A stretch of 37,854 nucleotides of DNA, taken from positions 1-37,854 of IMG/VR virus record IMGVR_UViG_3300025308_000343; one strand, 5' to 3'. Under the pieces are notes generated by a model that saw nothing but the letters and a program-made list of their open reading frames with translations, did no database searches and was not told the origin of the DNA. Below are positions 23,454 to 30,363 of the stretch, piece by piece. A program made the translations under genes and the position numbers. How positions within the stretch are numbered: the stretch's first letter is position 1; each line of letters opens with the position of its first letter. This stretch comes from a virus.

Positions 23454-24485
23454 ATGAAAAAATTCCGCTTGTACGCCGTTGTGGCTATCGCCCTCGGTGC
23501 TCTCGCCAGTGCCTTCGCGGCGCCGGCCATCGCTTTCCAGCCTTCGGTGGCTGACGGCCTTCCGGCGATCCTGCTTGGCGGCATGATCATCAACAAAGAA
23601 ACGCTCGCCGCCGCATTCACTGGGCTGAAAACCGTCTTCAACAACGCGCTCAAGGCGGCGCCTGGTAACTGGCAGCTGACCGCCATGGAGGTGCCGTCCG
23701 ATACGGCCGGTGAGGATTACGCCTGGTTGAGCCGCTTCCCGAAGTTCCGCAAGTGGATCGGCAGCAAGGTCGTCAAGAACATCGCGGCTGGCAAGTACTA
23801 CGTGGCGAACGAGGACTGGGAAACGACCATCGGCGTCAAAAAGAACGACCTGGCCGATGATCGCCTTGGTATCTACAAGACCCAAACGCAGCAGGCTGGC
23901 GAGTCGGCTAGCGAGTTGCAGGACAACATTGTCGATGACTTGAAGAACAACGCTTTCACCAAGCTCTGCTTCGATGGCCAGTACTTCTACGACACCGACC
24001 ACGCCGTTGCCGGGGCCAGCGTCAGCAACAAGCTGACCGTGGCTTTGTCGAATGCCACCCGCGCCGCTGCGGATGCCTCTTTTGGTGCGGCTTATCTGGC
24101 CATCACCAATTTCAAGGATGAAGAGGGTCAGCCGCTGCGCCTGATTCCAGACACCCTTGAGGTGCCGCCGGCCCTGATGGCGACCGCCAAGCTGCTCATG
24201 GAAAACGATAAGCTCCAGGACGACACGCCGAACCCCTATCGCGGCATGGCCAAGGTGTTGGTCAATCCGGCGCTATCCAGCGCAACGATGTGGATGCTGC
24301 ACGTCACCAGCAAGGCCAGCGTCAAGCCCTTCATTATCCAGATGCGCCAGCGTCCGGAGTTTGTCCAGCAGACCAACCTGGACAGCGACGAAGCCTTCGA
24401 TACCGGCCTCTTCAAGTATGGCGCCGAGGCCCGCGCCACTGGCCTCTACGGCTATTGGCAACTGTCCGTCGGTTCCACCGGCTAA
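23454..24485 (+). CDS. Major capsid protein (Mu gpT family)
   Basis: A 343-residue capsid protein. From Met44 onward (MIINKETLAAAFTGLKTVFNNALK ... YDTDHAV ... NPYRGMAKVLVNPAL ... FVQQTNLDSDEAFDTGLFKYGAEARATGLYGYWQ) it is a clear gpT of about 300 residues, near Mu T size. The first 43 residues look like a Sec signal peptide (MKKFRLYAVVAIALGALASA with AFA-A site). CAGGAGA supports the ATG at 23454; ATG 23583 (Met44) has only a weak site. Whether the extension is made and removed is open. Confidence 0.9.
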   Translation: MKKFRLYAVVAIALGALASAFAAPAIAFQPSVADGLPAILLGGMIINKETLAAAFTGLKTVFNNALKAAPGNWQLTAMEVPSDTAGEDYAWLSRFPKFRKWIGSKVVKNIAAGKYYVANEDWETTIGVKKNDLADDRLGIYKTQTQQAGESASELQDNIVDDLKNNAFTKLCFDGQYFYDTDHAVAGASVSNKLTVALSNATRAAADASFGAAYLAITNFKDEEGQPLRLIPDTLEVPPALMATAKLLMENDKLQDDTPNPYRGMAKVLVNPALSSATMWMLHVTSKASVKPFIIQMRQRPEFVQQTNLDSDEAFDTGLFKYGAEARATGLYGYWQLSVGSTG

Positions 24486-25368: not shown

Positions 25369-25812
25369 ATGCCGCTGCTCGTTGCTGGCGATCACATCAT
25401 CACCCGGCTGAAACAGACCTGCCCGGAAGCCGAGGGAAACGTATTCTCAACCGCCGACCTTGCCGGCGTTAAAGAGAAGTCACAAATAACGCCAGCCCTG
25501 CATGTCGTGCTGGCCCGCTACCGGCCGAAATCGAGCGACGGCGGCAGCTCGTCGCAATGGCGCGAGACTTATTTCGTCATCGCCGTCGTCAAGAACGCCC
25601 GGCAGAACAAGGGCAGCGAGCCAATCATCAACGAGGCCGCCGCGCTGCTCGCCGAAACGCTGGCCGCCCTGGACGGCTGGAAATGCCCAGGCACCACAGG
25701 CCCGATCACGCTCGTCGATGGCCCGGACCCCCTGATTACCGATAGTCATGGATATTTTCCGCTGGCTTTTCAAACCCTGACGCTGACCGAAGGCGTGCAG
25801 ACCGACTATTAA
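25369..25812 (+). CDS. Mu gp37-like protein (tail terminator candidate)
   Basis: A 147-residue Gp37-family protein. Markers are ADLAGVKEKSQITPALHVVLARYRP, QWRETYFVIAVVKNAR, AALLAETLAALDGWKCPGTTGPITLVDGPDPLITDSHGYFPLAFQTLTL, resembling tail-terminator folds. It follows gp36 as in Mu. Role as terminator is inferred from fold-like pattern and order. Confidence 0.82.
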   Translation: MPLLVAGDHIITRLKQTCPEAEGNVFSTADLAGVKEKSQITPALHVVLARYRPKSSDGGSSSQWRETYFVIAVVKNARQNKGSEPIINEAAALLAETLAALDGWKCPGTTGPITLVDGPDPLITDSHGYFPLAFQTLTLTEGVQTDY

Positions 25813-25835: not shown

Positions 25836-26234
25836 ATGCCCCGCTACGCACACACTGACTTTCTTGATAACGGTCTTGCCTATCTCAAGGCCAATTGCGA
25901 CAAGGTAATCCTGATCAACGCCTATGCTGCAGACTACGCGACCGTCAATGGCGCGAACAAAGTTGCCGAAGTTGCGCTCGTTACTGGTGACTTCGCTATC
26001 GCCGGTGCAGACGGCGCTGCTCGCGTGCTGACCGCAACGCTGACCGGCAAAGCCGGAGGAAATGCGCTACTGGCTGTCGCTGATGGCACGAACATGCACA
26101 TCGCGTTCGTCGATACCGTCAATTCCAAGGTGCTGTACGTCACTGAAGAATCCAGCGACCAGGCTATTACGCTGGGCAATCCGGTCCAGTTCAACAGCAA
26201 CCCCACGTACACCAGTGGCCAGCCGACGGTTTAA
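25836..26234 (+). CDS. Putative structural protein (132 aa)
   Basis: A 132-residue protein with Thr/Ala-rich beta-strand pattern (LVTGDFAIAGADGAARVLTATLTGKAGGNALLAVADGTNMHIAFVD), typical of a phage structural or decoration protein. CAAGGAG precedes ATG. Starts the accessory surface block. No family recognised with confidence. Confidence 0.65.
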   Translation: MPRYAHTDFLDNGLAYLKANCDKVILINAYAADYATVNGANKVAEVALVTGDFAIAGADGAARVLTATLTGKAGGNALLAVADGTNMHIAFVDTVNSKVLYVTEESSDQAITLGNPVQFNSNPTYTSGQPTV

Positions 26235-26237
26235 GTC

Positions 26238-27047
26238 ATGGCTGCGCCGGTTGGTGATTCGTACTCGGGGAAATCTGGCGGCGTGATTGCTGGCGGAAGG
26301 TGGCATATTGGCGGAAACCGGCAAATCGACATATGGGGCCAGTCAAACGCGATTGGTCGCGCTGAATCCGCTGACCTGTCTGCTAGTCCGCTTAACTCAG
26401 ATGCTGGGCTGATGACGTTTTACGCTGGCACATTTGATCGCGTTTACATCTGGTCAGGATCTGCATATGTCAAATTGCAAGCCAGCAACAACGGTTGTTC
26501 TGCAGGGCAATTTGGTCCTGAATTCGGACTGGCTGTCCGGTGGATGCGGGAAACAACAACTGGAACCCTCTACATCAATAAGGAGGCATTCAGCGGGGTA
26601 TCGATTACCTACTTTGATCCTGCTGGCGCGAATTACCCGCCCATGCGCACCCGTAGAAACGCTGCGGACGCGTGGCTAAGCGGAAATGCTGTAGCGATTG
26701 CAGGTAGAAGCTGGCTATGGCTGCAGGGAGAGACCGACTACACACAGATGCAAAGCTGGTATCAGACTCGACTCGAATCTCTGACCGCTGCCCGAGATAG
26801 CGACGGGCTTCAGGACGCATCGACAAAACGACTGCTGATGGATATGGCGGTCGGCTCTCTGAATTATTCCGCTGCTATCGTCGCCGCAAAAGCCGCCGTC
26901 GCCGCGGCCAGCCCGGTAAATACATTTACCCACTCGATGCCGCTGTACATGAATGTCGATAACCAGCACCAGAACGGCCGCGGGCAAGTGCAGGCAGCAT
27001 ATGACGCATTCGAGTTGTTCTACAACGTAAATCACATAAGCACATAG
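26238..27047 (+). CDS. SGNH-type carbohydrate acetylesterase
   Basis: A 269-residue esterase of the sialate O-acetylesterase/CE6 type. The nucleophile block is GQSN (Ser36 in IDIWGQSNAIG), the middle blocks are FGPEFGLAVRW and QGETDY (163-168), and the last block DNQH carries Asp241 and His244. It has no signal peptide. Its place between neck and tail genes suggests a virion-borne enzyme removing acetyl groups from host surface polysaccharide. Codon use is AT-richer than the surrounding genes. Confidence 0.82.
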   Translation: MAAPVGDSYSGKSGGVIAGGRWHIGGNRQIDIWGQSNAIGRAESADLSASPLNSDAGLMTFYAGTFDRVYIWSGSAYVKLQASNNGCSAGQFGPEFGLAVRWMRETTTGTLYINKEAFSGVSITYFDPAGANYPPMRTRRNAADAWLSGNAVAIAGRSWLWLQGETDYTQMQSWYQTRLESLTAARDSDGLQDASTKRLLMDMAVGSLNYSAAIVAAKAAVAAASPVNTFTHSMPLYMNVDNQHQNGRGQVQAAYDAFELFYNVNHIST

Positions 27048-27054
27048 GTCGATC

Positions 27055-28329
27055 ATGGCTCAACCGTCAGGACAATTACTGGTCGATGCTGGAAACCCGC
27101 TGGCAGGCTTGTTTTTCTATGCCCAGGGCACAAACGGAATCTGGGACGCCAATAACGGTGCGCTTCTGGCCAAGACCGGCACTGCCGGAATGGCCGTCGA
27201 GGGCGGGGCGAATGTCGTACTAGGCAATGCCGCTACTCACTATTCGCTTGCGGCTGCACAGACACTGACCGCGCCGTTCACGCTGCGAGTTAAAGCACGA
27301 AAAGAAGTCGGCACGACCACAAACTCGATGACTTGCGGCAACGATGCCGCGACGAACTGCTTTCACTGGCTGGATAGCAGCGCTGGGAAATCGAAATTCC
27401 GGATCAAGACTGGAGTATCGACTTACGGCGACATCGAAACGACAGCGGCAATCTCGACGACGGCGCACAGCGTCATCACGCTGACCATGACGGCAGCTCG
27501 CGAGTGGGTTATCTATCAAGACGACGCGGTTGTTGGGTCGGGTGCGATGGGCGCTGGCGCTGCCGAGTTTTTCCTGTCCGCCATCTGTGGAGGTTATTCT
27601 GGCGGCTCGTTCCGGCTCAATGGTGCGCTGGAATTCCTTCACGCCATTCCCGGATATATCGCATCGCCCGGCGAAATCGCCGCGCTGAATGCAGATCCGT
27701 ACGCTGTTCTTGATGTCGGAGGTAGCAATGCGCAACCGACATTCCCTGGCCCGAACATCGGCAATCAGATAGGCATCGTCGGCGTCGCGCTGTCGGTAAA
27801 CGACGTTTCCAGCAAATTTTCCGACACCGATGCGCTGACCTTCTCGGCTATTGGCACATGGCCCCCCGGCGTCACGGTGTCGAGTGCTGGCGTCATTTCA
27901 GGTACGCCGGTGACAGCCGGCGTTTATTCAGGACTGGCTGTCCGCGCCACCGACACGGCATCTCAGCCGATTGATTCGGACACCTTCAGCTTCACGATCA
28001 GCGCAGCGTCGCACTTGATTACGGCGTCGAACAGCCAGCAAGTCAACACGGCCGGCGCAGCGAGCGTCCAGCAATCCGGCTTCGGTACCATCACACTGCC
28101 CGCCCTGCGAGATTGGGGCACGGGCAACCTGAAGCCGAATGAAACAGGCGTAAGGATCATTGTTAACAATGAGGCATCTGGCGCGCTGGCTACAATGCTG
28201 ACCAACCAGACAGCCGACGCATCCGCCGTCTTGCCGATGATCAGCGGGCTGGTCTCGGGCACCGAATACCGCATCACCACGATTCTCGCTGACGGCAGCG
28301 AAGGCACCTGGGTGTACACGGCCTCATGA
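27055..28329 (+). CDS. LamG/Ig-like virion surface protein with one SQQ repeat
   Basis: A 424-residue protein. About 50-215 is a LamG/concanavalin-like sandwich (HYSLAAAQTLTAPFTLRVKARKE ... FFLSAICGGYSGGSFRLNGALEFLHAIPGYIASPGEIAALN). About 230-320 is an Ig/cadherin-like domain (FSDTDALTFSAIGTWPPGVTVSSAGVISGTPVTAGVYSGLAVRATD). Then HLITASNSQQVNTAGAASVQQ (Ser327) is one copy of the repeat that is multiplied in the next gene. A C-terminal fibronectin-like domain follows. It probably binds carbohydrate. Confidence 0.7.
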   Translation: MAQPSGQLLVDAGNPLAGLFFYAQGTNGIWDANNGALLAKTGTAGMAVEGGANVVLGNAATHYSLAAAQTLTAPFTLRVKARKEVGTTTNSMTCGNDAATNCFHWLDSSAGKSKFRIKTGVSTYGDIETTAAISTTAHSVITLTMTAAREWVIYQDDAVVGSGAMGAGAAEFFLSAICGGYSGGSFRLNGALEFLHAIPGYIASPGEIAALNADPYAVLDVGGSNAQPTFPGPNIGNQIGIVGVALSVNDVSSKFSDTDALTFSAIGTWPPGVTVSSAGVISGTPVTAGVYSGLAVRATDTASQPIDSDTFSFTISAASHLITASNSQQVNTAGAASVQQSGFGTITLPALRDWGTGNLKPNETGVRIIVNNEASGALATMLTNQTADASAVLPMISGLVSGTEYRITTILADGSEGTWVYTAS

Positions 28330-29519
28330 GCCATTTAGTATCCCTTTTCGCGCCTATCCCCGGCGCGCATACCGTTAAAAAGTATGCGGGGTTTGGCATT
28401 CTCGGTGCGGATATTCCGGCGACTGGCGACAACGGTGGGTCGCCGGTTCTCAACGATGGCATCCTGCCGGGGAGTGAATATTACTGGCGGATTGAGGTTG
28501 CGCCGAGTTCCGGGACGCTGACCATCTTTCCAGACCTGTCGTTTGAGCTTGACGGCGCGGCAGATGGTGATTGGACATGGCAATATCGGCTGTTCGAGGA
28601 CGGTACCGATGAGGGTGTTGCTACTGTATCGGTGCATGTCGGGGGACACGATGTCACGATAGCCTCCAGCCAGCAGGTCAATCAGGCATCGCCGGCCAGC
28701 GTCCAGCAAACGCATCTGATTTCGGTATCCGATAGCCAGCAGGAAAACCAATCAAGTGCGGCCGCCATCCAGCAGACGCACAAGGTTGTGGCCGCCGACA
28801 GCCAGCAGTCGAATGTCGCCAGCGCGGCCAGTGTCAGCCAGTCATCGACCTCATTCATTTCAGCCGCCAACTCGATCCAGACCAACCAGTCCGATGCAGC
28901 GGCCATTCGCCAGACCCATTTGCTTGGCGTAGCCTCCAGCCAGCAAGTCAATCAGACCAGCGCGGCAGCGGTGTTGCAGGTTGTTTCCGGATACCTTATC
29001 GCGACTGATTCGCAGCAGATCAACCAGGCAAGCGCGGCGGCTGTCAGGCAGACACACCTGATCGGCGTGGCCAGTTCGCAGCAAATCAATCGCAGCAGCG
29101 GGGCAATGGTGTCCGACGGAACCGTGGCAGCCGTTTTTTTCCTTGGCGTTTCAATCGAGAAGCGGACGCGGGTCGGCCTGACTGATTCGCCTGTTGGCGT
29201 TTATTTATGGCAGGAGATCGCTTTGGAAAATGTTTATCTCAAGGGCGAGGTTGTCCGTTTGCTTTGTCGGGTCGCTGACACCAATGGTCGTGACATCGAC
29301 CCGCCCGCGCTATCGTTAATGACGCGTTACGGTAGTGGCGTGCCGAGCGAGCTGGTGTTCGGTATTGATCCGGCAATCGTGCGCGCCCGCCAGGGGCGTT
29401 ATTACGCCGATGTGCCGTTGACCGAGCGCGGCACGATGTATTACCGCTGGGAAACCGGCGCCGATGACAAGGGCGCTGGCGAGTCCTCCATCGTCGTGCG
29501 CGGGGGCCGTTTCCAGTAG
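28326..29519 (+). CDS. Surface protein with 22-residue SQQxN repeats
   Basis: A 397-residue protein. N-terminal about 1-107 is Ig-like. Residues 108-265 hold seven repeats of about 22 residues, HLI.VA.SQQ.NQ.SAAA(V/I)(Q/R)QT, with SQQ at 115, 137, 159, (SIQ 183), 205, 229 and 251. The C-terminal domain (about 268-397, RTRVGLTDSPVGVYLWQEI ... GRYYADVPLTERGTMYYRWETG) is a phage structural Ig-like fold. Spacing and Q/N ladder recall curlin repeats and beta-solenoids. Function unknown; an extended spike or fibre is plausible. Confidence 0.75.
   Translation: MSHLVSLFAPIPGAHTVKKYAGFGILGADIPATGDNGGSPVLNDGILPGSEYYWRIEVAPSSGTLTIFPDLSFELDGAADGDWTWQYRLFEDGTDEGVATVSVHVGGHDVTIASSQQVNQASPASVQQTHLISVSDSQQENQSSAAAIQQTHKVVAADSQQSNVASAASVSQSSTSFISAANSIQTNQSDAAAIRQTHLLGVASSQQVNQTSAAAVLQVVSGYLIATDSQQINQASAAAVRQTHLIGVASSQQINRSSGAMVSDGTVAAVFFLGVSIEKRTRVGLTDSPVGVYLWQEIALENVYLKGEVVRLLCRVADTNGRDIDPPALSLMTRYGSGVPSELVFGIDPAIVRARQGRYYADVPLTERGTMYYRWETGADDKGAGESSIVVRGGRFQ
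28647..29121 (+). repeat. Tandem coding repeat array (66/72-base units)
   Basis: Seven units of 66 or 72 bases encode the SQQxN repeats. AGCCAGCAGGTCAATCAG-like words recur at each unit. Units have diverged, so this is an old array rather than a recent slippage product. Additional copy near 28021-28080 in the preceding gene. Confidence 0.8.
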
Positions 29520-29628: not shown

Positions 29629-30363
29629 ATGGCCGTCACTACCGCAATTCTCAAGGGCACGCTGTACCTCAAGAAGGTCGGCACCTCTTCGCTTCTTTCC
29701 GCCGGCAATGCCACCAAAATCTCAATGGCGGTGGAGGTCGAAGAAAAAACGATTCCCAACACCCAGACGCCCGGCGGTGGCAATCACGACAGTTTCAAGC
29801 GGACGAAGGCCGTCAAGCTGGCTTGTTCGTTCCGCAATCTTTCCAAGAACGTTCTGGAAATCGCCTTCGGCGGCAAGCTGACCACGATTGCCGGCGGCGC
29901 CGTCGCCGATGAGGCACATGCCGATATCGTTCTCGGCAGCCTGATCCCGACCCTCAAACGTCAGGACATGACGGCGGCGCTGACGGTTCAAATGGGCGCC
30001 ACGACTTTTGTCGAGGGCGTTGATTACCTGCGCAAGCGCGCCGGTATCATTCCCCTGACCGGCGGTGCCATGGTGGCGCTCGACGACATCACCATGACCT
30101 ATACTGCGCTGGACATCACCCGCATCGACGGCATGATGGCCACCTCGACCGAGTGCTACGGCCTGTTCGACGGCGTCAATGAGCGCAGTGGCGAGCCGGC
30201 TTATGGCGAGTATTACCGCCTGCTGTTTGGCCCGGCCAGCAATATCGAGCTGGTTGGCGATGAGTTCGTCAGCTTCGACTGCGATGCCGAGTGCCTGGCC
30301 GACGATACCAAGCCGGCTACAGACAGCCCGTTCTATCACTTCGAGCTGGGCGGTATCGAGTAA
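29629..30363 (+). CDS. Tail tube protein (siphovirus type)
   Basis: A 244-residue protein: AILKGTLYLKKVGTSSLLSAGNATKISMAVEVEEKTIPNTQTPGGGNHDSFKRTKAVKLACSFRNLSKNVLEIAFGG is characteristic of phage tail tube proteins of long, flexible tails. It contains the expected beta-strand hairpins. TTTGGAGGG precedes ATG. The absence of a sheath gene next to it argues for a siphovirus tail. Confidence 0.82.
   Translation: MAVTTAILKGTLYLKKVGTSSLLSAGNATKISMAVEVEEKTIPNTQTPGGGNHDSFKRTKAVKLACSFRNLSKNVLEIAFGGKLTTIAGGAVADEAHADIVLGSLIPTLKRQDMTAALTVQMGATTFVEGVDYLRKRAGIIPLTGGAMVALDDITMTYTALDITRIDGMMATSTECYGLFDGVNERSGEPAYGEYYRLLFGPASNIELVGDEFVSFDCDAECLADDTKPATDSPFYHFELGGIE

Follow-up and report, generated by a model that had tools for sequence, protein, structure and literature searches.

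The repeats of curlin proteins (CsgA/CsgB, PF07012) have a period of 22-23 residues, two half-repeats, glutamines spaced by 11 residues and a ladder of Ser, Gln and Asn. Each carries two N-Psi-Psi-Q kernels, and E. coli CsgA has been described as left-handed (PMC10192328). A second kind of repeat, a two-residue motif iterated along a phage fibre, is found in T4 gp37, in which HxH pairs are reported to coordinate iron (PMC11705849). Fibre genes may also come as a module, as with the GP4 module of podophages, which includes fibre I (Gp80) and a fibre-tail adaptor (Gp77). Here we describe a 22-residue repeat from a 37,854-nt (37.9-kb) virus record (IMGVR_UViG_3300025308_000343, positions 1 to 37,854), hereafter the window, and compare it with these systems. 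The initial annotation had likened the repeat to curli-type beta-solenoids and considered it unusual for a phage.

Eight repeats in two adjacent genes

The repeats lie in two genes, A and B, which share four bases (ATGA, 28326-28329). Labels beginning with L denote loci of relatives, whose recovery is described below.

27055-28329, + strand: gene A, 424 aa, without a Pfam or PHROG match
28012-28080, + strand: repeat 1, inside gene A, HLITASNSQQVNTAGAASVQQ / HLITASNSQQVNTAGAASVQQSG
28326-29519, + strand: gene B, 397 aa
28326-28646, + strand: N-terminal domain of B, about 107 aa, conserved in L004 (63%), L144 and L108
28647-29118, + strand: repeats 2-8 in gene B, seven QxN units of 22-24 aa, predicted right-handed beta-solenoid
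29130-29519, + strand: C-terminal domain of B, about 130 aa, a separate small gene in L114, L144 and L027

One of the eight repeats stands near the end of gene A and seven are found in gene B, at a spacing of 22-24 residues. Their alignment has the consensus HLIxAAxSQQxNQASAAAVxQT, and all eight repeats agree at four columns (S, Q, N and A). At its best lag, the repeat region of B matched itself with 52 identities, whereas 2000 shuffles averaged 23.9 and never exceeded 33. This result confirms the earlier observation of eight 22-24-residue repeats with regularly placed Ser, Gln and Asn across two adjacent genes. The best self-match lags were 46, 11 and 22, and an 11-residue half-repeat is also present in B (Q-V-N versus Q-T-H).

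Tandem Repeats Finder detected no DNA-level tandem repeat in the array. Residues common to the eight copies amount to 50%, and only 49% of the identical residues use the same codon. Given the divergent codons behind conserved residues, and with no repeat detected in the DNA, the copies are old and have been maintained at the protein level while the DNA drifted; recent DNA duplication is not their origin.

Outside the repeats, the N-terminal part of A appears jellyroll-like, followed by an Ig-like part (both judged by eye), and its repeat is followed by an 80-aa C-terminal domain that is conserved in L004, L144 and L108. Where the C-terminal domain of B has a stand-alone homologue (L114, L144 and L027), this homologue adjoins a repeat or fibre gene.

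Relatives of the repeat

To recover relatives, IMG/VR was searched with two degenerate nucleotide patterns that describe the repeat. A locus was counted if its array had at least four units; duplicates were removed and the window itself was excluded. We found at least 67 such loci besides the window, while none of 8436 composition-shuffled open frames gave an array of at least four units. As the initial annotation had anticipated, unit number varies between relatives, ranging among the matches listed from 4 to at least 34 (the maximum, in L019). The step from one unit to the next was 22 in 517 of 577 cases among the matches listed; other even steps (20, 24 or 26) accounted for 45 and odd steps for 15. 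This bias towards even steps is what a beta-solenoid would need, because a change of two residues preserves the in-out alternation of a beta-strand.

A search with gene A returned one relative, L004, whose B-like gene keeps the N-terminal domain and has HxH repeats. The peptide-pattern search for relatives of B in viral and genome contigs found none except L004, and tblastn of B against the phage collection returned no relatives, low-complexity filtering probably hiding the repeats in part. No convincing model for the repeat was found in Pfam, PHROGs or NCBIfam for the proteins scanned; where the longest arrays gave a few low E-values, the families hit are unrelated and composition is apparently the cause. 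A paper search for the repeat sequence found nothing. Judged by sequence, the repeat is a member of a large phage repeat family that is absent from the curated libraries searched. It is therefore less exceptional than was first thought, since the superfamily is common in phages, mostly in the HxH form described below. One family protein, Octadecabacter DB virus 2 gp11 (L140:7065-8591), bears the public label ribonuclease E, an apparent composition artefact.

The QxN and HxH flavours of the repeat

Window-like Q-x-N occurs in seven arrays among the matches listed (L011-L015, L017 and L019), and looser versions of it are seen in L016 and L018. Most of the remaining arrays among the matches listed have H-x-H at the Q-x-N position. 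Both flavours share a frame around the motif pair, with hydrophobic residues at -7 and +9, Q at +11 and H at +13, and the window repeats have this same frame together with the superfamily period of 22. In a 94-row alignment of seven-repeat segments, QxN and HxH fall in the same columns. Masking the motif columns left the QxN profile with a summed score of 110 bits on 12 HxH arrays, and no column-permuted profile out of 200 exceeded 22 bits. By these sequence measures the QxN and HxH flavours are homologous, one repeat in two forms.

True intermediates also exist, namely QxH (L032 and L066), HxQ and QxT, as well as HxN in L018 when read by eye. In L051 and L135, QxH was considered as a separate flavour and rejected; it is the second half-repeat (+11/+13) seen in another phase. 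Octadecabacter DB virus 2 gp11 has A/S-x-S at the motif position, with the QTH-x-L frame unchanged. In the B homologue of L144 (L144:7272-8267), the N-terminal domain is kept and an Ala/Gly/Ser-rich array with a period of about 21 residues replaces QxN, possibly a further flavour.

Proteins of one phage share a flavour: A and B of the window are both QxN, and three adjacent genes in L108 all have HxH. The L144 homologues of A and B, read by eye, have Ala/Gly/Ser-rich stretches at the same places. L108 and L109 weigh little on this point because HxH dominates overall. Sharing of a flavour within a phage would fit co-assembly of the coils; gene conversion would be an equally simple explanation. 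Taken further, the superfamily might be a modular phage beta-helix with an exchangeable core pair. HxH ladders would then enclose a column of metal ions within a single coil in most phages, metal-free QxN amide ladders would stand elsewhere, for example in the window, and neighbouring proteins would share a flavour as a consequence of end-to-end stacking of their coils into a continuous shaft. We consider this extended scheme rather improbable as a whole.

Predicted fold of the repeat region

Modelled from its single sequence, B gave no usable fold (pLDDT 33). With the 94-segment alignment, AlphaFold2 modelled the repeat region as a single chain at a pLDDT of 77.1 and a pTM of 0.69, the depth of this alignment being inflated by overlapping segments of the same arrays. 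The model is all-beta, with long strands interrupted about once per 22 residues. Structure prediction, proposed earlier as a check on the solenoid, thus returned a beta-solenoid once the family alignment was supplied, and we predict that the repeat region folds in this way.

The best match in structural alignment was the SufB/SufD beta-helix (Z 13.4, 2.5 Å over 158 residues), and the model superposes on the FHA, HxuA and RTX antifreeze beta-helices at 2.2-3.3 Å. Right-handed parallel beta-helices including pectate lyases gave 2.2-3.7 Å, whereas the left-handed helices LpxD and GlmU fitted only at about 11 Å; we take SufB/SufD, FHA, HxuA, the pectate lyases and the RTX antifreeze protein to be right-handed and LpxD and GlmU to be left-handed. 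SufB/SufD, FHA, HxuA and the RTX antifreeze protein are alike in predicted fold (2.2-3.3 Å) but differ in their functions and lack a sequence relation to the repeat (about 4-12% identity). Foldseek E-values were weak (best in PDB 0.5, best in BFVD 0.022), and the nearest predicted viral structure was BFVD A0A6J5LIP7, an uncharacterised phage protein (TM 0.82). Sequence queries against the PDB, made with the repeats, the C-terminal domain of B and the partner family introduced below, returned no convincing match. The right-handedness of the solenoid is a lead rather than a result, because it comes from a predicted model built on an alignment with overlapping segments.

One could also read the array as a low-complexity, disordered linker with no defined fold, given that it is composed mostly of S, A, Q and V and that the single-sequence model is worthless. 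Such a linker is highly unlikely in view of residues kept despite codon differences, a period fixed over many divergent phages and a beta model of fair confidence from the family alignment.

Comparison with curlin and with HxH fibres

Next to the predicted solenoid, the likeness to curlin that had been noted at the outset lies in the period (lags of 22 and 11), in the QX10Q spacing (Q at 0 and +11) and in a composition rich in Ser, Gln and Asn. CsgA is among the structural matches (8c50, Z 12.5), and two BFVD phage proteins named 'Curlin associated' match weakly. We therefore weighed whether a phage has taken over genuine curlin repeats, which would polymerise into or decorate curli-like fibres as a functional amyloid. 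Curlin membership was tested five ways and rejected. The Curlin_rpt profile (PF07012), which was positive in an E. coli control, had no match in the window (E<=10), in B and eight relatives (E<=1) or in ten more arrays (E<=0.1). Neither B nor five QxN relatives contained the curlin register Sx5Qx4Nx5Q (0 matches); in them Asn follows Gln at +2 and not at +5. Against E. coli CsgA the repeat profile scored 3.1 bits, a value reached by 13/150 column-permuted profiles, and hhalign gave a probability of 0.1%. CsgA superposed on the predicted model only at 8.6 Å, compared with 2.2-3.7 Å for the right-handed helices. No CsgG was found at E<=1 in the record, which is possibly a fragment.

Curlin and the window repeats also differ in build: the latter have Q-x-N in place of the N-x-A-x3-Q kernel, a conserved Leu and His and a predicted right-handed coil, and they lie between folded phage domains within multi-domain proteins, with no Csg secretion genes. 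Of the proposed curli-type beta-solenoid, the 22-residue repeat and the predicted solenoid therefore stand, while curlin membership does not, there being no PF07012 match, a wrong register and no CsgG. That the phage borrowed true curlin repeats is very improbable. The repeat is not a curlin, although it may work like one in that its polar side chains stack into a ladder; the amyloid label is not supported.

Phage fibres are often or usually trimers, and a trimeric arrangement could differ from our single-chain model. The repeats might form a fibre like the T4 gp37 needle, with three intertwined chains and the 0/+2 pair on the three-fold axis, where the pair would bind metal if HxH and stack its amides if QxN. 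The fibre context, the repeated two-residue motif and the HxH found at the same position in most relatives are all shared with gp37, which is likened here by description only, and L037 has a sub-threshold match to Pfam PTR (phage tail repeat). The window repeats themselves have QxN at that position and lack the His pair of gp37 and of the Alteromonas phage R22Y fibre. In addition, the single chain is already a compact solenoid at fair confidence, and strict 22-residue turns with two-residue indels suit a solenoid. The R22Y fibre protein, gp12, has HxH spaced by 22 and was examined as a relative; its repeat (HTHSIEDINGL...) differs outside the motif, as read by eye, so we rejected it. We regard an intertwined trimer as unlikely, though it deserves to be kept in view.

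Gene neighbourhood

Genes A and B lie in a cassette between a tail terminator gene and the major tail protein gene, and two further genes precede A:

25369-25812, + strand: tail terminator / neck protein, upstream cassette boundary (PF23840 Phage_tail_terminator, 1.4e-21; phrog_209, 1.4e-24)
25836-26234, + strand: partner protein, family A6, 132 aa (alignment A6)
26238-27047, + strand: SASA-type carbohydrate esterase (PF03629, 5e-08; 2e-109 to the L108 cassette)
29629-30363, + strand: major tail protein with Ig-like domain, downstream cassette boundary (phrog_807, 1.7e-44)

Homologues of the partner family A6 were found within 3 kb of the repeat gene and on the same strand at 44 of 67 loci among the matches listed; many of the other loci end near the repeat gene. 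The family has no Pfam, PHROG or PDB match and may be a fibre base or adaptor.

In relatives, the immediate neighbours of the repeat genes include head-tail adaptors, portal and head morphogenesis genes and the GP4 fibre-tail adaptor gp77. L144, whose tail genes are similar, encodes a GP4 fibre-I-like protein (Gp80) two to three genes upstream of its homologue of A; this Gp80-like protein (L144:3782-4318) has a signal-peptide-like start, unexpected in a virion component. The Gp80-like gp8, the partner gp9, 'tailspike' gp10, the repeat protein gp11 and 'tail fiber' gp12 adjoin one another in Octadecabacter DB virus 2. Genes of the podophage GP4 module thus adjoin repeat genes in relatives, but neither Gp80 (PF23140) nor Gp77 (PF23148) was detected among the window cassette proteins scanned, and profile comparison of A6 with Gp80 gave no match (0.3%).

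An N-terminal lectin-like domain, Laminin_G_3, was detected in the QxN relatives L012 and L018 above the curated cut-off and in L017 below it. The esterase has a short N-terminal tag, MAAPVGDSYSGKSGGVIAGGRW, that is common to non-homologous neighbours in relatives. It has the form M-x-x-P-x-x-DSY...G...AGR and occurs at 26238-27047, L004:5323-6714, L108:12019-12834 and L144:4891-6102, in carriers that are effector-like (SASA esterase, propeller-like proteins); its appearance is that of a shared docking signal by which fibre tips could be exchanged. Elsewhere in the window, the major head protein frame (23454-24485, phrog_371) has a signal-peptide-like stretch, MKKFRLYAVVAIALGALASAFAAPAIA, in frame before the usual start region, MIINKETLAAAF, and the true start may be internal.

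The position of A and B between tail terminator and major tail protein is outside the usual 3' tail-fibre region. Together with the adaptor, portal and head morphogenesis neighbours in relatives, this would suit a capsid or neck decoration, or a secreted protein that is not part of the virion, instead of a tail fibre. The carbohydrate esterase and the lectin-like domains of the cassette speak against this assignment, as do the tailspike, tail-fibre and GP4 fibre annotations that adjoin it in relatives, and we judge it unlikely, though not negligible.

Discussion

We propose that A and B are subunits of an accessory virion fibre, of the tail or collar, in which the B repeats form a beta-helical shaft of variable length; we put the probability of this reading at roughly 0.6. 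According to this working model, A and B would be expressed together with the 132-aa partner and the carbohydrate esterase. The seven repeats of B would fold into a right-handed, two-sheet beta-helix with one 22-residue repeat per turn, in which we infer that the conserved L, I/V, Q and H line one wall of the core; the opposite wall would carry a polar ladder of stacked Q-x-N pairs, replaced by H-x-H in most relatives. Copy number would set the length of the array, which would serve as a rigid spacer, anchored and joined to its neighbours by the terminal domains. The esterase and lectin-like parts may contact a sugar on the host surface.

Annotation has a large blind spot here: the family is common among phage structural modules, includes a protein with at least 34 copies and has no entry in the curated libraries searched. 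Since HxH and QxN are exchanged at a single position, a direct test of what metal does in phage fibres becomes possible. Should the beta-helix prove correct, protein engineers would gain a simple 22-residue building block, and phages a rigid shaft of adjustable length.
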